DNA from: Saccoglossus kowalevskii
Taxonomy: Eukaryota; Hemichordata; Enteropneusta; Harrimaniidae
NCBI RefSeq assembly: GCF_000003605.2
Contig: NW_003111483.1
Span: 29,903-61,652, forward strand
Direction: 5' to 3'
DNA: 31,750 bases
Every line of letters begins with the position of its first letter. Within the stretch, counting starts at the first letter, position 1. The position numbers and the translations under genes were made by a program. The notes under the pieces are model-generated. The model saw only the letters and a list, made by a program, of their open reading frames with translations, searched no databases and had not been told where the DNA came from. Below, piece after piece: positions 3,301-31,460 of this stretch.

Positions 3301-6300
3301 TTACTGTGTGGCTCACACTTTGACATTTTTTTGCCGGGACAGCCACAGTGATTGTGGGTACTCATCTGTGCCATTGTGTGAAAACAATTGTGGGTCCATT
3401 GTTCCTTGGTTTGAATATGCGAATTGATATGTGGTCACTGTTCACTGATGTATGCTTAAGATGGTTCAGGGTCGTACCTGACGAGATGCACAATACCAAT
3501 AGTATTTCGGGTTTTTCGGTAATAGCTGTTATTAAATGAATTTGAAATTGATTTTAGGCGTCTTTATTCGTTTATTACGTATATAATGCATTGATGAGCC
3601 ACTGTCATACTGACCGAGGGTTAATTAGAATAACCTGGACGCATGGTGCCGGGAACAGCCACTGGTGCCGTTCGGCCGGTGAGGGCACCACTCACGCCTA
3701 CATGTCTGCTAAGGCAGTGTCCAGCACACACAATATTACCTCTGAGGCATATTCTATAAAAACAATTAAGTGATGTTCGTTTACGTCACAGGTATATCAA
3801 GGATACGAATGCCAAGATTAGCCCGAATGCACTGAATGATCTAATCAACAAGCATTCACCGGATATCAAAACATGGACTCCGTTACCAGGATCTATGTTT
3901 GACCTTGGAAAAATCCTCAAGGACAAGGACGACATGTAAGTATCTACATTTATCACATAAATAACCTTTCCATGTTAGTTTTATCTAAGTTAGTATTATG
4001 TGATGGGTTTTTTTTTTCTGGATGTATTCTCCTACAAGCTTTTTATATCTATTTAATTAATTTCCTACATGGAAAAATCCACTCTTACGTCTTTAATCTT
4101 TCTTTGCCACCAGAACAGCCTTCAGAGATCCTCCCCCTGGAACCAAAATATTGAAAGATGAGTAAGTGTTAAATTAATTCCGTGCAACAATAACTATTGC
4201 ATCCTTTCAAACAATGCCAAGAGTTGTGTTAAATTAATGGATTGAATAATATTCTCCAAAACTTGACTCGTGGGTGGTTGGGTGTGTTTGTTGCTGCGTG
4301 CATGCGTAACACAAGACATTATATCGGGCATGTGCACATGCATTTGTTTCATGGTCCAATACAAGATGGCTTCACTATCCAAGATGGCCGAATTTTTAAA
4401 GGCTGAATATGCATCAAAGTCGCGCATTTCCACCTTGCCGTAACCGGATCTCAGCCGTGCATAGATAGATTCTGTTTGAACTTCGTACATATACATTTAA
4501 GACGAAAATGTTCATTTTATGCAGTAAATCTAGTGATTTACTGAGTTTATGGAAATCTTAACCTTCTATTAGTATTTTCAATTGCTAACTTTTCATTTCC
4601 AATTGTAATTAACAGGAAATAGCAGTTATACCCGATAATATAATTTTAATAATATTTCCATATTTATTTCCTACAGTTGGGATTTTGACAAATATCTGGA
4701 CGCCATTGATGCAAGCATTTATAATGAAATATTTGCCTATCCTGAATGGGTGGAATTCTATTATAAGTGGTGCCAATTTAAAAATTACAATCTCGTTGTC
4801 AAGGTTTGTACTGCGCATGCTCAGTGTTCAATACTGATTTGTTTGACTGTAACTGAAATTTTTGTTTGTAAACAATTTGAAAAAAAACAAAACATAAAAT
4901 AAGTTTACAGGTTCATTATTGTTTAAGGTGTATGTTTACGGGATCTTGACCTTACCACTGTACTCTGACATAATGTAACACTGCTCTGATAATGAATCAT
5001 GTGACCCATCCTACCATAATGTACTATTTGCGTTTCTGTAAACAGATGATTGAGACGGATGACAATTTCCAGCCGATAGAGGGCGCATATACATATATGG
5101 TCGACTTCGTTGGTGAAGTACCAACATTCCCGAGTGAACGGCCTGACAGAACACACAATTATCTTGAAGTAAGTTGTACACTTATTTGATATTTTGTTTT
5201 GAATTTTCATGTGTTCAGAAAGTTCATTTATTTTTAAATGTCAATTTCAGATTCGCAATAGGATTGGGGTACATAGGCAGACCATGTTGACTGGGATGTT
5301 CTGGGATGATTTGTACATTGGTTTTAATAACAGAATCACGCGTGATCCTGACACGTTCCATTACCAGTAAGTATATGGCATTAATATTCAAGTCTTTGTT
5401 ACTATGTCGCCGAACAGTCTGGAATTGTAATGAATTATCAGAGATAATACTATTTAGGTTTGTTTTTGGAATATGTTTATACGACATGACCGTTTAAAGT
5501 GGGAGGGTCGCCACCTGCGCACGCTCGGGAATTGAGTCCCACGATAACAACACCCGCTAAAAACGCAAAGGCTCATGGGTAGATGCTTGTTTGTAAGCAA
5601 TGACACGCTATGACCATCTGACGCATGTGCAGGTGACGACTTCTTATTCTTTATATATGTGCAAAGTTCTCGGTTATGTCCCAACATTTGTTGAGGATTT
5701 TTAGTGCTTCCAAATACTAGTATTGGCAATTGTTTCAGTTTCCACAATGTTTCCATAACTAAGGGGCGATACCAATAGAGGCAACATGCACGGTTTTATT
5801 GACAATATTTCGGTTTACAATACGGTAACTAAACTCGCAAAGCAAGCTTTCCCATTAATTAGGTCATTTTGGGTCTCCTGTTTTTCTTATTGGAACAAGT
5901 TAAATCATATTCCAATGTCAAATGATTATCCCAAACAAATACGAATCTAAAAGTGTCATCTCAGTGTGCATCTATGTCAAAATAAATAATTTAATCTGTA
6001 CTATTGTACATTATACTCAACATATCATTAATCTTACAGTCGATATTCTACATGGCATTGTAGTAATAACTGTTTTTTACTTTGGGGTATTGAGGCAGAT
6101 ACAATGGTACAGGTATGTCAAATGGGTTTGGGCATTTTAATACCTCGTTACTGTGGTACTGGATTTGTATAGGTTTGGTTTGGCGATGCTTTGTCAGTTA
6201 CTTATCTGTTTTTATTTCCAGGTTTTGGAATTACATGCAGGTTCTTTTGCCACAAGAACCCCCGAAATGGGAAGAATTCCTTGAAGAACAACGAGCTAAA

Positions 6301-6703
6301 GGAGCACGGGGGAGAAGCGTATGGGCGCCATCTAATAAGGCTCTTATCAAAGGCATGTAACGCTTTGCACTAACAATCGGGGATACAAACCTATTTCATT
6401 GCATTGAGTTAATAACTCGGAAGAGTCATAATAGTGCGTGATCAGCGTTGCACTGTGAACCACTGAAATTTGACAAACTGCGAAAGCTTTAAGGTTTGAC
6501 TTTGCATTGAGGCGGTAATGTTTTGACTAAATAGTGCTACCTGCAAATGTAAAACATTAAACTATATTTTTTTTTCTTTCTTTCGTGCAGGGACCACCCG
6601 CGTGCCGCAGTCTTACTCGTCAATACTTTGCACCGCGGCACTTTCTATGGCCGTTGGTGTCGCTGCTGCCGTTGCTTTGCGAATACTTGTCCGCAGTCGG
6701 TGA
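328..6703 (+). CDS. CMAH: CMP-N-acetylneuraminate hydroxylase, 3' ten exons (5' end outside window)
   Basis: CMAH is an iron-sulfur monooxygenase that turns CMP-Neu5Ac into CMP-Neu5Gc, using cytochrome b5 as electron donor. Exons read in phase: 328-409, 648-785, 2686-2821, 3792-3935, 4114-4161, 4677-4803, 5046-5168, 5251-5366, 6222-6352, 6591-6703. They total 1158 bp, or 385 residues plus stop. Landmarks that match vertebrate CMAH in order are RFMILMDGVHPELDT, DTVDCTNPNGGRLP, MMSDFAGGAAGFPMTF, YFPFAGYFVEAHPSDKYIK, TWTPLPG, NYNLVVKMIETDDNF, FWDDLYIGF and FWNYMQVLLPQEPPKWEEFL. The N-terminal Rieske domain and the first part of the metallo-beta-lactamase-like domain must lie left of position 1. 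All introns are GT-AG except the last, which I read as GC-AG (see the terminal exon). I see no stop or frame break within the exons. The identity is very secure; the exact C-terminus is less so. Confidence 0.95.
431..560. mobile_element. 130-bp TTAA-flanked MITE, family A, copy 1 (in a CMAH intron)
   Basis: The ends are near-perfect inverted repeats, TTAAAGGACGGTGGTCRTCG. The element is bounded by TTAA on both sides, as expected for piggyBac-type target duplications, although TTAA is itself a palindrome and so is not proof. It has no coding capacity. The reverse complement matches the copy at 15346-15477 along its whole length, including the shared core gctatgaatcccatatcgaa. Confidence 0.8.
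786..2685. other. CMAH intron (1.9 kb) with a foldback repeat
   Basis: No exon is recognised. The joins at 785 and 2686 are in phase and the protein is continuous across them. The intron holds the foldback element at 1871-2462, including a 12-base G run at 1911-1922. Confidence 0.7.
1871..2462. mobile_element. Foldback element with arms of about 95 bp (1871-1966 and 2369-2462)
   Basis: The left arm read on the minus strand and the right arm on the plus strand share aaacagctgattttaaca, ggctctatgg and ttctatcccaYaattc in the same order, with moderate divergence between. About 400 bp separate them. The arms are too diverged for an active element. I see no coding sequence. It could also be two independent, oppositely placed copies of one short repeat. 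Confidence 0.55.
2822..3791. other. CMAH intron (970 bp)
   Basis: No exon is seen. A short hairpin lies at 3294-3314 (gagccac/gtggctc). The open frames in this stretch look like chance. Confidence 0.6.
4162..4676. other. CMAH intron (515 bp)
   Basis: It holds two caagatggc motifs near 4363 and 4380, which resemble YY1 sites and also occur in dispersed repeats. The 100-codon minus-strand frame across it has no recognisable domain and is probably chance. Confidence 0.5.
5495..5653. mobile_element. 159-bp inverted-repeat element (MITE) in a CMAH intron
   Basis: The left end reads taaagtgggagggtcgccac followed by ctgc. The right end on the minus strand reads taaagaataagaagtcgtca followed by cctgc. 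The arms match with one small indel, and the interior is non-coding. TA may be the target duplication. Its outer TAAAG resembles the family-A ends, but the interiors differ. Confidence 0.5.
5654..6221. other. Remainder of the 855-bp CMAH intron
   Basis: AT-rich sequence. The chance open frames at 5922-6140 and 6115-6360 overlap the true exon start at 6222 and are not separate genes. Confidence 0.5.
6591..6703 (+). CDS. CMAH: CMAH terminal exon encoding a C-terminal transmembrane anchor
   Basis: This exon follows a strong polypyrimidine tract and acceptor (tttctttctttcgtgcag, ending at 6590). Joined to 6352 through a GC donor (aaag/gcatgt), it reads 36 residues and then a stop at 6701-6703. 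They comprise a short polar linker, the hydrophobic segment ILCTAALSMAVGVAAAVALR and a basic tail ILVRSR, which is the pattern of a tail anchor with a positively charged cytosolic end. Starfish (Asterias rubens) CMAH is known to be membrane-bound, unlike the soluble vertebrate enzyme, so the reading is biologically plausible. The alternatives are a GT donor at 6357 (at/gtaacg), which would put the exon in a Cys/Arg-rich frame, or no splice, ending at the 6358-6360 stop. I prefer the GC donor because only it gives a sensible tail; this is inference. Confidence 0.65.
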
Positions 6704-6800
6704 AGAACTCGAAACTGGACCAACGTAGGCCGTGTAGACTGACCTGAAACCAATATAACCACGAGGACGATCACGAACACTCTTCGTGTTCATATATTCT

Positions 6801-6806
6801 ATTAAA
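6801..6806 (+). terminator. Probable CMAH polyadenylation signal (ATTAAA)
   Basis: ATTAAA lies about 100 bp after the CMAH stop. A stronger overlapping AATAAA cluster lies at 7875-7885 and could end a longer 3' UTR. Confidence 0.35.
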
Positions 6807-6924
6807 CTATTATGCTGCATATTTAATTCTGTCGTTTACAACAGGATATTTACACGTATATTTATATATACCGGTATATATATCCGCCCACAACTCTGGT
6901 CACCTAGCTTAAAGCTTCTATCTC

Positions 6925-7340
6925 AGACGGTGAAACCACAGTCAGCTGGCCGGGGTATTTGAAACCGAAATTGTCATCTAAGCGTTAGGCCGTCGCTGAT
7001 TGACTGCTGAGCTGGAATGCCAATTTTTAGTTTTAAATACCCCATAAAAGTGTTCTAGGTTCTTCGCGTAATTAGGTGGTCGTATGCATGGGATTTTTCC
7101 ACACAAACACGACGAATTAGGCCGAATTTTGTTATCGGTTGGCTTAATATAACCCCAACGGACTGTATTTTTGTGAAAGATTGGTATTTTTGTCGTGATT
7201 TGTAGGAATCTGAAAAACGCGTTTCACAACTTGTCTCTTAGTTTTATGCGTCATTCAAGATGGCGGCCCCCATATAGTAAATATCGTATTTATTTTATTA
7301 TCACGTGTGCGCCAGCTGACTGTGGGTGAAACCACCAAAA
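6925..7340. mobile_element. Probable 415-bp inverted-repeat element downstream of CMAH
   Basis: The motif ccacagtcagctggc lies near 6935, and its inverted copy gccagctgactgtgg lies near 7311. The interior (about 7040-7152) is repeated in inverse orientation at about 10105-10215, which supports a mobile origin. A caagatggcggcc (YY1-like) motif lies near 7257. Confidence 0.45.
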
Positions 7341-16086: not shown

Positions 16087-16984
16087 CATCTTGAAATTGA
16101 CCTACTTTAGGAAAAATACATCAGACAATAGCCGTTAAAATCGCTAAAACGTGTGCTCCAAGCCTTAAAACTGATTTAGCGAAAAATTTAACTTATCTTG
16201 ACAATATAACTAATATTAAAAAAGGGATGAATGTCTGAAGGCACTTTGTGACCACCCCCTCTCCCCGACACACATACACAACTCCGGCAGAGTGTATACG
16301 GACATACGATAACATTTATCTGCCTTAGCAGGCAGGATATAGCGACATGTTTCTGTACCGGTACTATCAGTTCACTGTAATACACACACACGAGAGTAAA
16401 TGCAACATATTGCTCAATGTTCTAAAATAATACCTCAAATATGAAATTTATGATCACGCAGAGAAATGAAGTATTTTTTCAAGCCGATGATATTGAACTT
16501 TTTCCGCTTACTCAATGATGCTATCCATCACGGTTACTACTGGTAGTAACCGTGTATCCATTGAGAGTATTTACTGTCAGTGTCAAGAGAATAAGTTTAA
16601 CCTACCTGTAGAGGGCGATATTTACAAAAACACTGGATTTTCAATTCATATGTTTTCTTTTTCTATACATACTTTAAAGTAGCAACAATCCATTAGATTA
16701 TTTGCTAGCGTCTTACCTGTTTTTTTTTAAGAAGTTAATTTCAGCCATGCAATCTTCACATGATTAAAAAAATGTTTAAGATAACATAATCAAAATTTCA
16801 TGTGGAAAAAAAACTAAACATTTTTTGAATCATACCTAATTAGTAGAGGTGGCTTGGGTGAAACAGGGAAAAAAGACTATATTGCAGACATTATAGAAGA
16901 GTCTCTTGGAAAAATGAGACTGATACCAGCAAAAAGGTTGGGGTCTATGTACTAATTTTATACTTATTTGAATTACATTCACAG
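16087..16984. other. Gap before the PNT exon
   Basis: It contains a perfect hairpin at 16529-16554. It also has a short open stretch at about 16848-16910 (GLGETGKKDYIADIIEESLG) with a possible donor aaaag/gttggg, whose phase does not fit the next exon. Nothing firm is seen. Confidence 0.4.
16529..16554. repeat. Perfect 12-bp inverted repeat with a 2-base loop
   Basis: cacggttactac and gtagtaaccgtg flank tg. It stands out in AT-rich surroundings. Its function is unknown; it could be the centre of a decayed foldback element, since actcaatg and cattgag flank it. Confidence 0.8.
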
Positions 16985-17310
16985 ATCCTATGGAATGGAG
17001 TCCAGAGCATGTGACTATATGGTTAGACTACATGGCAAGACGATACAACATACAACATATACCATACGAGTCATTTCAAATGAATGGTAAAGGGTTGTGT
17101 ATCATGCCAAAGCCAGGGTTCCTACGCAGAGTACCACGTAAAGGACATTTGATGCATCATGATCTTTACCAGAGAATCAAACAAAGCCGCTTTGGCATTG
17201 ATCTGAAGAAACAACATGTACCACTGAACTTGAAACTGCCTAGCAAGTCTGTAACATCCACTGCTATTGGGAAAGCGAACAGTGACTTGTGCAGAGATAA
17301 ACTTAACTAG
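16985..17310 (+). CDS. Pointed (PNT/SAM) domain protein, ETS-family-like, terminal exon
   Basis: The acceptor (ttacattcacag) precedes 16985. The frame from PMEWSPEHVTIWLDYM to HDLYQRIKQS spans a full PNT domain of about 67 residues. It shows the family marks W-S-x-x-x-V-x-x-W-L, then F-x-M-N-G-K-x-L-C, then F-x-x-R-x-P, then the last helix. PNT domains occur in ETS transcription factors, where they bind partners or form polymers. PM.WSP resembles SPDEF, and MNGK.L resembles ETV6. The exon ends about 37 residues after the domain with a stop at 17308-17310, and no ETS DNA-binding domain is found in the following 3 kb. It could be a PNT-only regulator. The start is uncertain: the ATG at 16990 may be the initiator, or upstream exons may add an N-terminus through phase 1. 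Confidence 0.75.
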
Positions 17311-20415: not shown

Positions 20416-23400
20416 CTATTGATGACATACACTTGTATTGTGAAGTAGTTTCACCCATGTCATATGTGGTAGCAATTCTCGTCTACGCCTTAGACTGACT
20501 CGTAACCCATAGTCGAGCTCCGGAGTATCATCTACAAGTATCCGTACAGTTCTATTTGGTGTTGTTAGTTCATCCAAAGTCTCTCTTTGGGGTGTGTGCA
20601 TCAAAGACGAGAAGTCATTCGCTCCAAACGTTAATTTATGCATGTTTCTTTCCACTAATCTCCGTGATCTCCTGCGTGGAGTGTCAAAATTGGGCATTTC
20701 TGCTTCACGTGTCACCTTTCTTGATTTCTTCTGTATTTCTCTCATTTCCAAAATAATATCGTCATCAGTTTGGCAAAGAATAGGGATAGTTCGATCTGAA
20801 TTCCAATTATGATCTGTGAGGGCAGCCTACATAGAAATAACAAGTTACCGGTATACTAAATTTGAATAATAAACATTGTTATACATTAATAATAATAGTG
20901 AATTATTGCATAATTCAGCATATAGTTCCTTGACCTTAATGTCTGTTTACCGGTAATCTGCGAGTTTATTGCGTTCTATTTCAAACTTTTTCAAAACGCA
21001 TACTGATCAGACAACATCTGTACGTCATTGCATATAGAAATGCATAATTTTACTAAAAACTGATTTACTGATTTTTTTTTCATTGCTTATGAATTATTAA
21101 TTTACACAAGAAAAATTAATCTTTCAGCTAAACCACATCATGCAACTGGCCCTTGATTTAATTGGTAGTTTGACGGTGTACTGAAGGACAGTTTATAATC
21201 CTTTCAGCACAGTGTCATTTGATTCAAACTTTCTGTTATTCATTTATGTCACAGAATGATTCTTAGAAGCAGTGTATTTGGGGTCCTGCTATACAGGCAG
21301 CAAACTCATCTCTGATCAGCCTTATCATAAATTAAATATGTCATTTTAACTTCATCGCTAAATATTTTCATCTAAGCATACAAAATGTTGGTAAAACTGG
21401 ATCAACTTACTATTGCATTAGGACTTGTTCTTGTTCCATCTCTGTTTCTGACGCATTTATCAATCATACCGATTTCACTGTTTGTTTCAGGATTCTCTGC
21501 AACTTGTCCATTATTGTCAGAGATATGTTCTGGAGTGTTAAACTGACAGTCAAGACTTGGAGTTATCTGATCAGCCTTGACTGGAGAGTTACATTTCAAT
21601 CTTGTAAACAATGCCTTGGTACTGTCACTTTCATTTCCGCAAAGCATAATGTCACCTTCGGCATCCAGTTCAAAACTCTCTGTTTCACTTTCAGACTCAT
21701 CCTGTAACGGATTTTGATCAATAAATGGCAATGGGCGATACTTTTCTAACACTTTCTTTGATGTTTTATTTTCTTTGATGGATGCATTTTTAGACCTTGA
21801 TAGATGCCCTGACGTCAAAGTTTGGTTTGATTGAATTTGACACTTCCTTCTTTTTGTCTTTCTTGGTTGTGAACACTGGTTCATCCTACTGAACTGAGGT
21901 GAAACCTAGATAATTGGAAAATGAAAAGAAATCAAGGAACATTGTCAGTAAACTCAAGATATTCAAGTCCAAATATTTTTACAAGAGGCAAAAATTTCAT
22001 TGTATGACCTGATTTCTGGTAGTGAATCATTATGTAAGACAAAAAACACAAGAACATGAAATAAATTATTTCATGGAACTTTTCACTTTCAAATAACAAT
22101 AATTTGCAAGGTACTCGCTAGTTACTATATGGAAAGAAAACTAACAATTCTAGTGACAGTTGATGTCACTGTCAAGTTTAGCTTATCAATTATTAGGTTG
22201 TCATTACTATACATATGACATTTTCCTATGTAGAATATCAAAAAGCTTTTTAGTACAAAACACACTTTTTTATTTTATTTATTACGCAGATCATACCTAT
22301 CAAAAGATTTGGAAAAAAATATTATCAATACACAAATATATATTGATATCAATATTACATTTAAACTTTTGAAATTACCAGTTGCACGAGTCCATCAAGT
22401 CTATTGTCGGACACAAAGTTTTGTAAGGGGGTCGCCTAGTTGTCCATCAACTTTTTTGAGCAGTACTGGTAGGTTATTTAATAAGTGTCAATAAGTTAAT
22501 AAATGATCTACTAGTAGTAAACTTGTTTTGCTTGTTTTTCCTTTGTATTCTGTTGTTTCGTTTCTGAAAAAAGTTTCTGTGTGCCCTTATGCAGTAATAG
22601 TGATGATCTAAAACATCATGTGTGCACTCTTTGAGATGGAAATGTTTTGAAGTATACTAACAGTGGTTCTCATTGGCAATACAGTTTCCAGTTATCCGAC
22701 GTCATCCTGCAGCTTTACTATGCGCGTCTGGCAACTAAAATAATAATTATGCGTGGGTGGTGACTCAAACATTTGAGGATGTACACGGTGAGATTTAATG
22801 TGGTTACGCACCGTTTGACGACACCTTAAATAGTACATGTATATCATTTTATTTTTTTAATACAACCACAAAGTAAGAAGCCAAAAGTTGATTCAATGAG
22901 TAAGACAAAAATAAGCTGGCTGCCCGACTTTTGATGGATTAAAAGTCAATCAGCATTCTGAGGCAATTTACTGCAAGTTACGGTGTCCTTGCTGTCAAAT
23001 GAAAGTGTAGGAATAAATACTAGAGATATGGGCAAAACAAGTTTGTTACTGGCAGTACTCATCTCAAGAGAGAAAGGCTCAAAAGGAAAAAGAAGCTCTA
23101 AATTTCCAGAAAAAAAATAGATGAAACCCCTGCAAAGAAAATTAGTCAGCATCTCAATAACAATACAGTTGATACTTTGAATTGGAGCATGAAATGCTGT
23201 TGATTTATTAATACAACTAAAACTATCAATGTGAAACTATCAGCAATATTGCAATTCCAAAATGTTTTCGTTTGGAAACATAAGGGCGATAAGACTTGAT
23301 TTTTGACACAGGACATTTGAATCGAATGGTTTCTTTTGTTTTAGTGCAGAAACATTGCAACATTGTTTTTTGGTGAATATAAAATGTTTTCTGTACCAAC

Positions 23401-25335
23401 AACAGATTTTGTTATGCCAATCGAACAATTTCAACAATTCCTTACTGGAACGTCTCCTGTACAAAACAGTCTTCAACTTTTCAAAATTTCACAATGGTAC
23501 CGGTACTAGCCCAAAATCAACTTCACGTTCAGTGTGACTATGGTTGTAGCAATTTTCACACCACTGTACAAAAAGATGCACATTTACAAATTCACTCGAG
23601 TGTACAAGGATAGTGGAAATAGATGGAAACACAAAACGGGTACATCACTCAAGAAAATTGATGATTTGATTGCTGGCTGGGATATCACTGTTGTGGATGG
23701 CAACAGCTTACAGAATGTTGTAGTTTGTGCGACTCTCTTGGCACGGTCAACTGACTTTTAGCTTTCTTTTTTTACTATTCTGATGTGTTCTTGGTCTCAT
23801 TTTGTATATACATGTACCAGTCAGGCACTGACAAGTAAGTAAGTAGGTCCAGGACGTAGTCAACATGGGACTCTGAATCACAAATACAATGTACATGCAC
23901 ACCACAAAGAAAGAGCCAACTTGCAGCATTAATGAACAAAATTCACATTTATGCTGGAGAGAAACAGTATACATATGTACAAGTTTACTTCAAAGTGGAA
24001 ATAATATACCTATTTTTCTATTGTTGGAAGGTCGGCAAGTGGTATTTCCATAAGCTGTAATCATTTTATTTATTTTCGTAATTTAAATGTTCTAAAAATG
24101 TAATCAGCTTATATAATTTTATTTTTCCCTAATTTGTACAAAGATCTTATTTTTTGTAAGCGCATAAAGCATTTTTCACAGTAAATGTTGTAATTCGTAT
24201 GCAATTTCCAATTTTTATTCTTAAACACGAAATATCAAATATTTTATAAAAATGCAATTAGGTATTTGCTATATCTGTAAAGTGTAAAAACCCATTTTTG
24301 ACTGTAAATTGAACTTTTGTTTTATTTACTGTAAAAACCTAAAATGCTTTTTTTATTCCGGTAACCTTTCCAACTTGAAGAAAACAAAACAAACGACTGA
24401 CAAAAAATGATGTGTATGATGTAGACAAATCAGTAAGAAAAAGATACTATGGAACCCATGGTATACGTAAAAATGTAAGTATAAAATTAATGTCAGTGAG
24501 TAAAATATTAAAAAAACAAACAAAAAAAACCTGCAGCCCACCTTGACAAATTGATAACCCCTAATATTGCTAAACCGCAAAAACTTTAAATTTCATATAT
24601 TGGGATAAAGAAAAAAAAAAGGATTTTTGCATGAAGTTACATGGATAGAAAAAATGCATTACTATGGCAATGGAAAAAATGGTTATATTTATTAATTTAT
24701 ATATATTTTCGTAAATATCTCTGACTGCGAAAGACATGCATCACATGTAATAAGATAAACGTTTATGGTTGTAAGTATTTACTATATTTCTATGTAAAAC
24801 ATTATAAAGCTATTCTATAAAATCAAAACGATTCATTGGTGGTAATATTTCCACAGTGAATGCGCCGACGTCGTGTTGGACTTTAGCGATACGTGATTTT
24901 ACGTCTTTGGTTGTCACCATGTCATTATTTCTTGTGTAAAAAATCAGTTCAGAGGTTAGCAGTTGTATATTTTGATGATTGGATCTAACAACATACTTTG
25001 AGTTATTATTTTTTGGAAAACAAGTTATTATTATCCGTTTTGTGATGTAATGTACCTTTTGGGTCCTACTAATTACTGCAGTAATTTTAGGCAGTTTTGC
25101 GTGGTAGATCTACAAAACTCTACCGCCGTAGCGTAGGGTCGAACATCTCGCTCAATCATTAATAATAGCTTACCCATTCAACCGATGTTTCCTCGTCCAG
25201 ATGCCTAACATCAGCTGTTGGCGGGTTTCTGGCATTCATTATCGGCGACACATACGCCCTTGGTAAATTCATCGGACTTTCAACAAAAGAAAGTTTCGAT
25301 TTCTGATTACACGACTTTTTTCTTCGTCTCGGCAT
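20416..25335 (-). CDS. RHNO1: RHNO1 / RHINO, 9-1-1 clamp and TOPBP1 interacting protein (3 exons)
   Basis: In vertebrates this nuclear protein binds the RAD9-HUS1-RAD1 clamp and TOPBP1 in checkpoint signalling, and directs polymerase-theta end joining in mitosis. Exons on the minus strand are 25335-25174, 21905-21411 and 20826-20416, all joined in phase 0, giving 355 residues (human: 238). The start MPRRRKKSCNQKSK matches human MPPRKKRRQPSQK, so I chose the ATG at 25335 over the in-frame ATG at 25356. The first splice rebuilds VEWVSPQF, matching the conserved SWVSPDF clamp-binding motif. The last exon has LTTPNRTVRILVDDTPELDY then GLRVSLRRRRELL, matching human GTPNSPEPGPVLVKDTPEDK then YGIKVTWRRRQHLL. 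The middle is low-complexity and acidic with scattered SP/TP sites (CNSPVK, FNTPEH, MHTPQR). I see no break. Confidence 0.85.
20827..21410. other. RHNO1 intron 2 (584 bp)
   Basis: AT-rich with good minus-strand borders: donor aata/gtaagt at 21410 and acceptor ttatttctatgtag ending at 20827. Nothing else is seen. Confidence 0.7.
22870..23115 (+). mobile_element. Possible decayed hAT-type DNA transposon remnant
   Basis: Across two plus-strand frames the stretch reads SKTKISWLPDF, then EAIYCKLRCPCCQ, then NKFVTGSTHLKREKGS. This is the layout of the TTF-type zinc finger at the start of some hAT transposases (W-L-x-x-F, C-x-x-C, then F-x-x-G-S-x-x-x-K-x). Several stops and a frame change show that it is dead. 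The match is by eye only. Confidence 0.3.
24810..25000 (-). other. Unrecognised open stretch inside RHNO1 intron 1
   Basis: The minus-strand frame is open for about 63 codons and ends at the stop at 24812-24810. It includes ELIFYTRNNDMVTTKDVKSR and then IAKVQHDVGAF. It is richer in G+C and looks more protein-like than its surroundings. The KSRIAKV stretch faintly recalls the C-terminal part of LINE reverse-transcriptase proteins, but that is weak. It has no fitting splice sites for RHNO1. It could be an old LINE scrap or chance. Confidence 0.2.
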
Positions 25336-26000
25336 TTTGCTTCCTTGTGTTTTCAAAGGAAATTTAAAAATCCCTCTGTGTTGTACTTTTTTTTAAGGTC
25401 ACAGGTCAACTCATCGAAGGACTGTTCAATTAGTATAACAGCGATTCCGATTGGTCAATAACACAACAAAGTGAATATGAACAAGAGGTTTATATGGCAC
25501 AATTAGTCAGATTTATGCCACTTTTGCAGATGAAATTATTAGCTACTCTCTAGAAAATACAACATCAGCCTTTTACACATCAAAGTCTGCCATGATAACA
25601 GTGAAATAGCATTAAATTAAATCTTTTATTTCAGCCAATGCCAGCTCGTGTACCAAATTGTTTTCACACCCATTGTAAATCTCGCGAGATCTTCTAACGG
25701 AGTCAAAATACCGCACGATGATTGGCTGGCGTAAACGAGATCTTAATTTAAAAACTCGACCTCCGCGTATTTTCAAAGTGTACATCCATGCCTGGCCGCG
25801 TCTTGTTGTTCTATTTCGAATTTGACGCTTATCTTGGCTAAAATAAGCCCATGCTGGATAAGGCAAGACCCATGACGGTAAGTTAATGAATTTAAGCCTA
25901 TTTATCAAATATTTTCCTCTCTGATTAAAACAAATCGCCGCGACCACGACCAAAACAAAAGCGTCTCGTTTAAATCCAAGTTTACTTTTTCATTATTTAT
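25336..26000. promoter_or_regulatory. Shared upstream region of RHNO1 (minus) and the FOXM1-like gene (plus)
   Basis: Between the RHNO1 start and the FOXM1 5' intron lie three CCAAT boxes: ATTGG at 25450-25454 and 25721-25725, and CCAAT at 25635-25639. There is also a TCTCGCGAGA palindrome at 25680-25689 and a CHR-like TTCGAATTTGA from 25815. CCAAT plus CHR is the usual set for G2/M genes under NF-Y and DREAM/B-MYB. The region is richer in G+C than its surroundings. Transcription start sites cannot be placed from sequence alone. The 113-codon minus-strand frame at 25612-25953 overlaps these sites and I do not take it as a gene. Confidence 0.5.
25680..25689. promoter_or_regulatory. TCTCGCGAGA palindrome
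   Basis: This exact 10-bp palindrome is a known core promoter element of TATA-less, often divergent, housekeeping promoters in vertebrates. Here it lies between two divergent genes, about 345 bp from the RHNO1 start codon. Confidence 0.55.
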
Positions 26001-26182
26001 AGTTTACTATCAGTACTAAATATTTGTAAACAAACCCAGTGTGTGAAAAACAAATTCACGTGTCGGTAAAAAGGACCTCCTGCTCAAATTATCAGTGAAC
26101 TGACAGGTACAATATATTTAATTATGCTAATTAATATTAATTGTTTTGTATATTGGTACAGTATTTAGAAAATTATTTTATG

Positions 26183-26604
26183 TAAGGCCAGACTTTTTTT
26201 ATTGCTTGTTTCTCAAGTTTTTATAAGGCAATTTTTTTGAGGAGGGCAGAAAAAAAAAAATTCTTTTTTCCATTAGATTTGTGTGATTCTCAAAGAATTG
26301 TAAGTGAGATCATTGATCAGAGAGAAGAAATGAAATAAAATTTTATTCCATGTATAACCTTGTTTCTCATCTGCGCGAGACTTCGGTACTTTGATCATGA
26401 TACTCCCCGAAAATGCAACTTGGATTTGTTATGCGGCGGGCGGTAAAAAATAAAGATAAAAATAATATTTTTTTAGCATTGTTTGCGCTTACAAGTCGGC
26501 GGGCTCAAGAAATTAGGCTGAAATAAAATTTTATTTTTATTTCATTTTCAGCTCCTGTTCATTCGGCGGGTTCGCAAAACAAGGGTTAATAAAAGTCTGG
26601 CCTA
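26183..26604. mobile_element. 422-bp inverted-repeat element in the FOXM1 5' region
   Basis: The left end taaggccagacttttttatt and the right end, read on the minus strand as taggccagacttttattaac, are inverted copies with TA at both edges. The interior repeats aataaaattttatt twice and has short G+C-rich patches (gcggcgggcggt, gtcggcggg). It is non-coding. Confidence 0.65.
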
Positions 26605-27202
26605 ATATGCCACTATACAAAGCTGCAGCCTATAGGTTTATTTAAATAATAAAGCTTTCAAATAAATTAAATTTGATAGAAAACATCATTATTTGTAATA
26701 TTGAATTGACAGGTACTTTTCATGTCTAAGACATATCCCAAAATTGTCATTATTTTTAGTGGGCTTTTAGGATGAAATGCACTTTGTTGGTACTTAATGT
26801 CAAAGTGTAGTCTATAAACCGCTGTTAAATTGCTATTTTCTGTATATTATTGAGAGTTGTTCTTAAAATACAGAGACAGTTGTTCTGAATAAAAAAGTCC
26901 TTGTATATTATATTATATTCTACTGAAACCATTAATTGTAGACATACAAAATATCATTACTCCTGTATGTATGTATAGATATAAATAGTTGTAGGCATAA
27001 TGGTCTTTTTTGCCAATTACCAATCTGTTTTGCCATTTGGCAGATGATATTGTTTGTGAAAGATACATAATATTTACCAAATCATTAGTAATATGAAATA
27101 TAGTACAAAGACTTATGATAAAAAATGTGTTGATCATGTCTGCATGTGCATTTCTGTGGGTGTCAGAAATATTTAAATAATAATTTTCTTTTTTTTACCC
27201 AG
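26605..27202. other. Probable 5' intron of the FOXM1-like gene, remainder
   Basis: AT-rich and ending in a strong acceptor (ttttcttttttttacccag) at 27202. This implies at least one non-coding first exon upstream, probably near the shared promoter. No exon sequence can be fixed. Confidence 0.5.
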
Positions 27203-30200
27203 ATTGACCTAAAAATACCATTAATGGTGTGATGAAACTATTGAGAAAAACCTAAAAAGACAAGATTCATACTGAAATAATGGATAAATATAATCCAAGG
27301 AAATCTCGGGATCAGACAGACGGAGGACGAATTTTCCTAAATCATGACCTCACTTTTAAAACATGTGGAAGTGAAGACAATGTGAAATCACTAATTGACA
27401 GGATGAGTAATCAGAAACATTCAAGAAAGGTTATCATTCTTCGTCATCCAAAACCCAAGAGCACCTTGTCTGAAGAACCCCCAAACAAACAAGTCACCAG
27501 TAATGTCACAGGCATGTCCACAGTGTTGTCTAGTACATTCAAGTCCACAGAAAGCAGGAATACTGCAACTACTCTACAAAGTGTTCAACGGAATTCATTG
27601 CATGATACAATGTTGAATAATCTGCAAAGCCGTGACAAACATAATATGAACACAACTTGTGGCATGACTAGTATTCAGAATCGTACATCCTTATTAGGTA
27701 ATAACTCGTATGTTATGTACCCAAATATGGTGGAAAAGAATTGTACACGAAAGACGTCAATGACGCAAAGCTACAACAGTGCCACCCAACAAGGTGTTAG
27801 GATGGCATCTGCAACTATGGTACCTATGCGCAAACAGTCAAAAGGTATGGTTGTTGCTATAATGTGATATCTATCATTTTAAATTATTAATAATAAACAG
27901 TTCTCCATTGTGGAAACCTCTCAAATGATTTAACAGATAGTAATAAAATGTAATATGGCAATAGTTATCTGATTTATGAGAAATTATTTATCATAAAAAC
28001 TCCTATTAATTTACTGTAAAATTTCTTCTACAAAACATGTTGTAAAACATCACTTTACATTGCCAGTGATTTCTAACCGGAGTTTGCAATACATTGTATA
28101 CTGGTTAGCAACAATTGCAACAAACATGAACTTCACCCTTTTTTACTTGTAACATAAATGTACATGTACATGTAACTACAGGCATTTGGCAAGGAAAAAA
28201 TACTTCTAAACAAAGAATATAGATTGATACATTTTCTCAGTCATTGCTCTGACAACTTGATTGACTTTGGCCCCATGTTGTTGAAACGTTGAAATCACAG
28301 AATTGTGCTGTTTTCAGTTCTCTAAAATTTTGTCCGCCTCATCTTTTTTTACTAGACCAATGTCTAGAATCAAATTTAGGCATAATGAAAAAAAATTTTG
28401 CCTGGTCTTGGGAACACTGGAACAATTTAACATCACTTGTACATTTATGTAGTACCAGCAGCATGGTACACTTGATATATAGAGATGTCATACTACAATC
28501 GGGGATCTTGCCAGCCTAATGGGAGTGCTGGTCATTCATGAATATTATACATGTATGTGTCAATGAATATTAATGACTTGGTCACAGTGCAAATAATTTT
28601 TTTTATTGTAGTCAAAATATTATGTTTCACAATTTAGAAGAGTTTGAAAATATAAATGAAAAATTCTCAAAATGCAAATACTGCAGACTAAGAACAGCAG
28701 CAAATAAATTATTGTTTCAATGTCTATTGTAAAAGGTTAAATGAAATGCATTTGAAATGTTTTAACCAGTAATTTGTTCACAAGTTTCATGATTACTGCA
28801 AAAAATCGACCACGTAATTAATTGACGAACTGTTTATTATTTGTACCTTAATAAGCTTCTAAAATGTTTACATTCACAGTAATGAACGAACAAATAAAAC
28901 TTCCAATTGATCATCAATGTTACGAAATGTGCCTTAGTTTTATCAGGAACAATTATTTTTGATCACTGGATTGCTTCGGTAAAAAAAAAACACAGGCCAA
29001 TGGGTCAAGAATGCCATTAACTAATCAGAATGCTGCATGGTAATGCAGGTAGAACCCAAAATTTCTCTAATGTTGTTTGGATTGATGTTTCCTTTAACTT
29101 AATTTCCATAATAATTTACTTTTTGTCTTTCCATTGTTTTTTTTTTATAAATTACATTGTATTCATCTTATTAACACTTAGAACAATGATTTTAGTTTTG
29201 GTTTGAAATTCAAGCATAATAATTGTAGAATTTACACAATATGCATTATGATCACATTTAAAATCATAATAAGATGTAATATATTAAAGTATTATAAAAA
29301 AAGTATTATAAACTTAACACATGTAGACATGTAGTAAAAGTGTGGATCACATTCTTTTCACATTGTACATCTCAAATAGCAGACAAATATTAGTTGCTAA
29401 TAGGCTAAAAGTCTTTTCATCAAAAATTAATGTATTTTACAGTAGATTATATCATGTGCATACTGTGTACGTCCATGCTTAGATTCATAGTGCCAAATGC
29501 TCCTCGACTAGTCAGAAAGAACTAACTCCAATATTTTTAGTATTCGGGTGGTACACGCAATGTTAATATTTTTTGTGACCATTTCTGTTTCTTCATTGTA
29601 AAAGTCAGCGACGTCTCAATTAATTAATTTCATAATTTTATTTTCCCTCAAATGCGTAATATCCCTCTCAATCTGTCACATGGTGAATTAAAATTGTCAT
29701 TTGCATTTTTCGAGGGGGATGCTCGGGTAAGCGCCCACCCCAAAAAAAATCATGTTTTTCCCTGAGTTTAGGACACTGGACACTAATGCAATTTGTCTTG
29801 TGAATGTCTTGTCTTTGTCACTACAATATCTGCATGTACATTGTAGGAATGCATTTAAAGTGCCTGTGAAATGGCTGCTATTTTCACGCCTAAAATTATC
29901 AATTGATACTTAAATATTATTAATTTTTATGTTTCTAAGCATGAATTATTTAAGTGATAAAATGTGTTTTAAACTCAGTCTATGGCAACTTTATTTTTGT
30001 GTATTTTAAAACGAGGCTCCTCATTAGCTTCTCATTTGCATACAGAAATTCCCCTTGTGACGTCAGAAGGGGAAGTCACATGGCAGCTTGCAATGCCGAT
30101 ACGTGTAAATAAAGCAAATTTCTTGTGCAGTTTTCTCGTCTTTGACTATATTGTCACTTATGTACTTGGTCGTCGAGGAAGAATGGACCATAATGAACAC

Positions 30201-31460
30201 ATAGTATCAATTTTTGTTGCATGGGGTTGAGTTAGATGCGAAATATGTCCGTTCTGGTGTAGCTGGTCACTGTGATCGTCACCGACACCGGCGCACGTTT
30301 GTACACTGTTGCTGGACAAAATAGAATTTGACGTCGGAATTATCTCGTTATTTAGCAGGTTACTAGGCTGAGTAAAACTTTCAAAATTAATATAAAAGAG
30401 AACATATTTTGACATTCTGAACATTAGACTATAGTGATCACTATAAAATAATTAAAAAAACGACAAATCAGTTACTAAATAAATGACAGCCGCGTGGAAA
30501 TAAATTGACATTTTGTTGAAGTAGGTGAATGCGTCGGGTCACGGCGTTAAATTGAATAACAAAAATAATCAAGATCGACACACATACAGATAAAGTGGAT
30601 TCGAGTTAGCTTGATCCATGGCGTGATTGTCATAATTATAACATCGTATTAAAACTTTATTTGCTGGAAAAAACACATTGACCAAGCCTGGTTTCTTATT
30701 TTATAAATTATTACGCAGAGCAAGCTGCAAGCATGGAGGTAAAAAAGAACAGAGGTGTGAATTCGACATTCAACACCAATCACCAAACAATTCAGAAACT
30801 TTTAGCCTTCGAAAGTGAAAACAGTTAGCAGTGTGAGAAATATCCCAAATTTACTTGGATACGAGTAATCATTTTCAGCAAAAAAATCAATAACTACCCT
30901 TTTCAGTGGGACACAGATCTAAAATGGGAAACGTGAGGGTAGGCATTGCACAGGCACTTTAAACTAAGCTTTGGTTGTGGTTGGACACAGTCTCTGAGTC
31001 TCTCACCATGGTGGTCTAACAGAGGGACTGTCAGTTGGAAAAAGTTTTCACTACATCAGCTTTTTTTGATTGTTAGATTCACAGCTCATCAACATAATTC
31101 ACACTATGCTCTTTTTTGGGGGGTGATTGAGGGCATAATTCACTGCTACCTGTATGTTATGTAACACCTGTTATACAGACTTGTTCAAACAATCTTTTTC
31201 AAAGCTTCCTCCTATTTGCATGCCAATCAAAGCAGTATTCTAAGCTTTTTGACCAGTTGAAAAGTGTGAATTATGGTACTTACTATGCGACATGGTACAT
31301 TGCAGAGGCAGTTACAGAAGTAATACAACCAGGAGAGCAGACCAGATTGAAGCCACAGGACGCCATGAATGACAGTTTAACCAATATTACATGGTTGGGA
31401 GGTGCAAGTGTTAATCCTAACTTAGAGATAAAAGTTGAAAATGAACGATCAAAGGTAATG
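27203..31460 (+). CDS. FOXM1: FOXM1-like forkhead factor, first two coding exons (rest beyond window)
   Basis: FOXM1 drives G2/M gene expression. The first coding exon runs from acceptor 27202 with ATG at 27280-27282 to donor aaaag/gtatgg at 27844 (phase 1). The second, 31306 to 31454 or 31460, follows acceptor gtacattgcag and fits in phase with a joining Glu codon. SRKVIILRHPKPKSTLSEEP resembles the human N-terminus RRPLILKRRRLPLP. AMNDSLTNITWLGG, then LEIKVENERSK, resembles human INNSLSNIQWLRKM, then SIKQEMEEKEN, just before the forkhead domain. The rest is Ser/Thr/Asn-rich and disordered, as in the FOXM1 N-terminal regulatory part. The forkhead domain itself is not in the window, so the call rests on short motifs and on the RHNO1 neighbour. 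A longer N-terminus from missed exons is possible. Confidence 0.65.
27845..31305. other. FOXM1-like intron (3.5 kb)
   Basis: It contains the inverted-repeat element at 29854-30963. The open frames of 72-88 codons in it show no recognised domain. Small extra exons of phase 1-1 cannot be excluded. Confidence 0.5.
29854..30963. mobile_element. 1.1-kb inverted-repeat DNA element in the FOXM1-like intron
   Basis: The left end tttaaagtgcctgtgaaatg and the right end, read on the minus strand as tttaaagtgcctgtgcaatg, are inverted copies. Weaker matches continue (cacg...ttttag) to about 40 bp. TTAA lies inside both ends. The interior holds a plus-strand frame of 82 codons (29982-30230, ending NEHIVSIFVAWG) and an opposite frame of 88 codons (30424-30158). 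I recognise neither. It could be a non-autonomous piggyBac-like element. Confidence 0.6.

Follow-up and report, generated by a model that had tools for sequence, protein, structure and literature searches.

The closest described counterpart of the locus considered here is the human FOXM1/RHNO1 pair at 12p13.33, in which the genes for a cell-division switch (FOXM1) and a DNA-damage signalling protein (RHNO1) form a bidirectional pair, head to head and directly adjacent (PMC8104967; this and all other papers are cited from those portions of them that were available). The human promoter has a CpG island with E2F and MYC sites, and co-expression of the pair is proven (PMC8104967). In human ovarian cancer the two genes at 12p13.33 are also amplified together. 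Conservation of the shared promoter has been stated for vertebrates (PMC8104967), and RHNO1 itself has been called conserved in vertebrates (PMC10937111). RHNO1 outside vertebrates is nonetheless not wholly new, since homologues “in metazoa” have been mentioned (PMC6175577) and Caenorhabditis elegans ZTF-8, which binds MRT-2/RAD1, has been proposed as a functional homologue of RHINO (the RHNO1 protein), with a Nematostella relative listed (PMC4199516). As regards the pair, the RHNO1/C12orf32 literature accessible for the most part without subscription yielded, in titles, abstract openings and excerpts, no report of RHNO1 next to FOXM1 outside vertebrates. Here we describe such a pair in the acorn worm Saccoglossus kowalevskii, within a 31,750-bp stretch of contig NW_003111483.1 (hereafter the window; positions 29903-61652 of the contig, called C566 below, in a 572 Mb assembly). 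The same two genes are adjacent in the same head-to-head order as in human, and both the orthologies and the gene order are almost certain. The complete explanation, that of an orthologous divergent RHNO1–FOXM1 pair inherited from the hemichordate–vertebrate ancestor, we consider highly likely.

The minus-strand member of the pair has three coding exons in phase 0, bounded by GT donors and AG acceptors, which in the splice model of the window encode a protein of 355 residues:

25335-25174, minus strand: RHNO1 coding exon 1, residues 1-54, with the ATG at 25335; matches RHINO profile positions 1-58 with 22.3 bits
21905-21411, minus strand: RHNO1 coding exon 2, residues 55-219, within the collinear RHINO match
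20826-20416, minus strand: RHNO1 coding exon 3, residues 220-355 and the stop; matches RHINO profile positions 191-225 with 28.3 bits

The TAG stop of this frame, at 20416, is the coordinate at which an initial annotation, made from the letters alone, had its feature begin. That annotation had taken the gene for RHNO1, and a profile comparison of the 355-residue protein bears it out: the match to Pfam RHINO (PF15319) scores 54.5 bits, with the cut-off at 25 (expectation value, E, 2.4e-14), with residues 1-340 lying collinearly on positions 1-225 of the 239 in the profile. No RHINO match was obtained with any of four controls, namely the reversed protein and three shuffled versions of it. When the RHINO profile was run against the whole 572 Mb genome, three matches appeared at E<=10. 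Two of them are exon 3 and exon 1 of this gene, the latter by itself falling under the cut-off, and the third (14.7 bits) lies on another contig and carries two in-frame stops. The minus-strand gene at 20416-25335 is RHNO1, and it is the sole credible RHNO1 locus found in the genome as searched.

The contacts of human RHINO, a mostly disordered protein of 238 residues, are known in some detail. Residues Q12-F18 and K90-F96 contact the front pocket of RAD9 (PMC12907562); 56-WVSPDF-61 contacts RAD1, and 88-TSKFPHLTFESP-99 contacts RAD9 (PMC10937111); and BRCT1 of TOPBP1 is contacted through Thr202, which is proline-directed and has a hydrophobic triplet in front of it at -5 to -3 (PMC6175577). 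The two RAD9-binding motifs are of the KYxxL+ type. The acorn-worm protein holds counterparts to all four published contact motifs:

25285-25305, minus strand: QKSKLSF, residues 11-17, corresponding to Q12-F18 in human RHINO, RAD9 front pocket
25174-25176, minus strand: codon of W54, with which the RAD1-binding motif WVSPQF (residues 54-59) opens; the motif is rebuilt across intron 1
21891-21905, minus strand: VSPQF, residues 55-59, the remainder of the RAD1-binding motif
21723-21743, minus strand: KYRPLPF, residues 109-115, corresponding to K90-F96 in human RHINO, RAD9 front pocket
20518-20541, minus strand: ILVDDTPE, residues 315-322, corresponding to the TOPBP1-binding site at Thr202 in human RHINO

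Both KYxxL+ motifs are thereby matched, at residues 11-17 and 109-115. The junction of exons 1 and 2 restores EW/VSPQF, just as the initial annotation had described a WVSP[DQ]F motif rebuilt across a splice, and the C-terminal pattern that it had given, TPN...DTPE.DYG..V..RRR.LL, is found exactly so. ILVDDTPE sets Thr320 in a TP step and has the hydrophobic triplet at -5 to -3. The motif patterns were defined after inspection of both the sequence and the papers; all four in order occurred in none of 200,000 shuffles of the protein. Taken singly, the QKSKLSF type near the N-terminus turned up in 5,054 of these shuffles and the KYRPLPF type in 7,265, as against 5 for WV[ST]P.F and 109 for the TOPBP1 type. 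The two RAD9-type motifs are weak individually; the RAD1 and TOPBP1 motifs are not. The distances of motifs from the ends are also near those in human, with W54 corresponding to W56 and the TOPBP1-site threonine (320 of 355) lying 35 residues short of the C-terminus, as against 36 in human (202 of 238). The acorn-worm protein is about 117 residues longer than its human counterpart, and most of the extra length, about 99 residues, falls in the stretch from the second RAD9 motif to the TOPBP1 motif. ZTF-8, by comparison, is a zinc-finger protein of 687 residues with 8% identity to human RHINO (PMC4199516), and the acorn-worm RHNO1 is by profile far nearer the vertebrate family.

Pointing away from RHNO1 on the plus strand, and running past the right edge of the window, is the second gene, for which five coding exons are predicted:

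27280-27844, plus strand: FOXM1 first coding exon, behind the acceptor AG at 27201-27202, in frame with the forkhead exons beyond the window
31306-31460, plus strand: FOXM1 second coding exon, which holds DSLTNITWL; alternative donor after 31454
C566:65997-66161, plus strand: FOXM1 third coding exon (forkhead), same contig beyond the window, in phase
C566:67684-67819, plus strand: FOXM1 fourth coding exon (forkhead), same contig beyond the window, in phase
C566:68574-69739, plus strand: FOXM1 last coding exon, same contig beyond the window, in phase

The five join in frame into a protein of 726 or 728 residues, according to the choice of donor in exon 2; an additional exon is possible, because a run of 1,643 N directly follows the window. 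The initial annotation had called this gene FOXM1 and pointed to the right of the window for its forkhead domain. The domain is indeed there, with matches at C566:66021-66164 and 67678-67788, on the strand of the FOXM1 start and 4.4 and 6.0 kb past the window, and its class is that of FOXM1. Among the 46 distinct PDB sequences matched by the spliced forkhead at E<=0.001, three FOXM1 chains come top with 112.1-112.8 bits, and the next class, FOXA2, follows at 81.3. In the reverse direction, a human FOXM1 segment gave 99 matches in the genome, of which the two with the highest identities (62% and 72%) are the two C566 exons; their summed score is 99.0 bits, against 78.1 for the best single match elsewhere. 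At the other end of the protein, a search with its last 57 residues finds FOXM1 chain 6osw_B, which we take to hold the transactivation domain, at E 8.4e-4, and the N-terminus, to our eye, resembles that of human FOXM1. Judged by its predicted product, the divergent gene is FOXM1. A FoxM has been reported in S. kowalevskii as a single gene, for which no reliable in situ localisation was obtained (PMC4077281), and it is very likely the FOXM1 described here or its orthologue; the available portion of that paper treats foxM by itself and does not mention its neighbour. FoxM has likewise been reported in an annelid, and appears to have been lost in arthropods.

The same genome also carries a tandem forkhead array whose repeat unit measures about 1.94 kb; the array accounts for 87 of the 119 forkhead matches and is spread over six contigs (27 matches on C3072, 23 on C112, 12 on C4502, 9 each on C2214 and C3756, and 7 on C434, some units being counted as two pieces). 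Array copies in one sequence stretch (L031) are 93.5-96.9% identical to one unit. The open reading frame of the array, in which FSIAKIL follows the domain, looks FoxQ2-like to us. Only three FoxQ2 genes, two of them in tandem, have been reported for S. kowalevskii (PMC4077281).

By order, orientation and a Pfam search of the longest open reading frames, RHNO1 and FOXM1 are divergent neighbours with no gene detected between them; the two longest frames of the interval (125 and 93 residues) gave no Pfam match. The features of the interval that bear on its possible role as a promoter are these:

25336-27279, no strand: interval of 1,944 bp between the RHNO1 and FOXM1 start codons, the proposed promoter region
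25680-25689, no strand: TCTCGCGAGA, the palindromic BANP motif, 349 bp upstream of the RHNO1 ATG and 188 bp before the best donor
25878-25883, plus strand: ACG/GTAAGT, top-ranking among three strong donor words, at which a non-coding first exon of FOXM1 may end

The BANP motif has been reported near start sites at CpG-island promoters, and in zebrafish near those of replication-stress and chromosome-segregation genes; a search of the main text of the paper in question found neither foxm1 nor rhno1 named (PMC9363121). In the acorn worm, the copy of TCTCGCGAGA in the interval is the only one in the window, where 0.02 would be expected. Genome-wide there are 928 copies as against 34 of the reversed control, and TCTCGCGAGA therefore looks like a word that is used in this animal; at its genome density, 0.003 copies would be expected in the interval. 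The roughly 27-fold excess over the reversed control suggests, as an observation in its own right, a wide use of BANP-type promoters in this hemichordate. The remaining two strong plus-strand donor words of the interval are at 26182 and 26300. Since strong donors follow TCTCGCGAGA and coding exon 1 lies after the AG at 27201-27202, FOXM1 likely has a non-coding first exon, predicted to end at 25877. A CpG island was considered for the interval and rejected, CpG being raised yet not exceptional and higher elsewhere in the window. One CACGTG is present at 26057, at a density no greater than that in the remainder of the window. Compared with the human pair, then, the acorn-worm locus has the same genes in the same arrangement, with 1.94 kb between the start codons, a BANP word and no E2F word.

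Several observations tell against an ancestral RHNO1–FOXM1 pair with a common promoter. Outside vertebrates, the pair is known from one genome only. The interval contains no E2F, NRF1 or ETS word, its CCAAT words are at background density, and its CpG count, at most 18 per 300 bp (window mean 7.9, standard deviation 5.1), stays under the window maximum of 23. RAD1, a partner of RHNO1, gave no candidate in an exon-wise family search of the genome, a kind of search that a gene with short exons can escape. On the FOXM1 side, the match to 6osw_B weakens to E 0.056 when the full-length protein is the query, and in the reverse search the two C566 forkhead exons, scoring 65.5 and 33.5 bits singly, stand behind the 78.1 bits of FoxQ2-like copies. 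That neither exon ranks first is because an intron divides the domain.

Could the minus-strand gene be a low-complexity, disordered protein that merely resembles RHNO1? Its surplus of residues over the human protein speaks for this, as do the disorder of human RHNO1 itself and the outcome of a solved-structure search with the acorn-worm protein, which returned nothing relevant (five chance matches, E 0.55 or worse). These points are outweighed by a profile match extending over residues 1-340, by four motifs that come in order and keep their distances from the ends, and by reversed and shuffled controls that were negative throughout; mere resemblance is nearly refuted, and we give it next to no credence. 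Another way of accounting for the arrangement would be that two genuine orthologues became neighbours independently in hemichordates and in vertebrates, by chance or by convergence, a reading that benefits from the single non-vertebrate genome examined. In a genome of some 20,000 genes, the chance that a named pair is divergently adjacent would be on the order of 1 in 40,000. An independent origin is thus extremely improbable, and we have great confidence that the pairing was inherited by common descent. As the genes are divergent neighbours in human and acorn worm alike, the pair is most likely at least as old as the ancestor of the two, and the pairing probably predates the hemichordate–vertebrate split. 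Under the usual tree this ancestor is the base of the deuterostomes, so that the initial annotation is supported both in seeing a head-to-head RHNO1–FOXM1 pair outside vertebrates and in dating it to that base at the latest. A search for conserved neighbours added nothing on this point: none of 17 chosen open reading frames (among 122 in the window, and including 2 in the interval) matched a Pfam family above the cut-off, and of eight flanking stretches, four (L011, L014, L015 and L016) are wholly N and three (L010, L012 and L013) partly so.

Granted common descent, the pair may have been kept by inertia, with the FOXM1 start far from RHNO1, little promoter in common and no selection for co-expression. 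The 1.94 kb that separates the start codons would suit such a history. So would the want of an E2F word, unlike the human promoter with its E2F and MYC sites, and the fact that the FOXM1 leader exon is predicted solely from a donor word, one of three. Inertia does not, on the other hand, lead one to expect TCTCGCGAGA in an interval where only 0.003 copies are due, placed between the RHNO1 ATG and the best donor at distances that fit a compact divergent promoter. Taken together, these points make inertia rather unlikely and a promoter shared by RHNO1 and FOXM1 reasonably likely. With such a shared promoter, one compact region around TCTCGCGAGA, some 350 bp ahead of the RHNO1 ATG, would start both genes, the first exon of FOXM1 being short and non-coding. 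Through its RAD9 and RAD1 motifs RHNO1 would bind the RAD9–RAD1–HUS1 clamp and, phosphorylated on Thr320, would dock TOPBP1 in support of ATR signalling; FOXM1 would run the G2/M programme, and dividing cells would receive the two proteins together. Selection for joint expression of RHNO1 and FOXM1 is a plausible candidate for what has held them in place, and the shared order by itself is insufficient to show it.

On one point, the host, the initial annotation went astray in proposing an echinoderm. Contig C4830 (17,037 bp) is the mitochondrial genome, and its genes, named by eye from their translations except for cox1, run cox2, atp6, cox3, nd3, nd4L, nd4, nd5, cob, nd6 (minus strand) and tRNA-Phe, followed by the ribosomal RNA region, tRNA-Leu, nd2, a further tRNA-Leu, nd1 and cox1 (minus strand). 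It carries a tRNA labelled Lys/Asn with the anticodon ttt, and several of its AAA codons fall at what we take to be lysine positions. In published mitochondrial DNA, S. kowalevskii differs from Balanoglossus by an inverted COX1 and a transposed ND1 or ND2, and it reads AAA as lysine with a UUU anticodon, whereas echinoderms read AAA as asparagine (PMC3121625); in hemichordates, nd5 adjoins cob (PMC2697986). With nd4L adjoining nd4, cox1 inverted, nd2 ahead of nd1 and ttt as the anticodon of its tRNA-Lys, C4830 has the published Saccoglossus arrangement, which points to an enteropneust of that type, probably S. kowalevskii. Echinoderm mitochondrial DNA, marked by an nd4L away from nd4 and by AAA as asparagine (PMC2697986, PMC3121625), was rejected on both gene order and genetic code. 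The lancelet Asymmetron, which has a mitochondrial inversion, was rejected as well, its published gene order being different. After cox2, C4830 also contains some three nearly identical repeats, spaced about 191 bp apart (L022, approximately 6243-6879), which appear as repeated reading frames.

Elsewhere in the window, an exon of the SAM/Pointed family lies at 16972-17307 on the plus strand (Pfam SAM_PNT, 59.9 bits; TEL/Yan type). Among single-domain PDB entries, Drosophila Yan (pokkuri) matches it best, at 45.1 bits; the ETV6 chains that rank above Yan carry several copies. None of the 11 ETS matches in the genome falls on C566. In human, ETV6 is also on 12p13. In the flanking stretch L013, a frame of 162 residues at 6650-7138 on the minus strand contains KRCVLDLDTKVSIINRLERGETASNLSTEYGVGKSTISDIK and looks by eye like a helix-turn-helix of the CENP-B/pogo type, the kind found in Tigger-like transposons.

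The presence of RHNO1 with its four contact motifs complete, in head-to-head position with FOXM1, moves both the form of the adaptor and its pairing back to the hemichordate–vertebrate ancestor. It also makes a question testable, namely whether an old constraint ties the replication-stress factor to the mitotic regulator or whether their coupling is a leftover. A bolder and decidedly tentative proposal is that the pair has been a regulatory unit since at least the deuterostome, perhaps the bilaterian, ancestor, its BANP-opened promoter having to switch on, in proliferating cells, the 9-1-1/TOPBP1 adaptor together with the G2/M regulator. Were this true, lineages devoid of FoxM, such as arthropods, might also have lost RHNO1 or have unlinked it.

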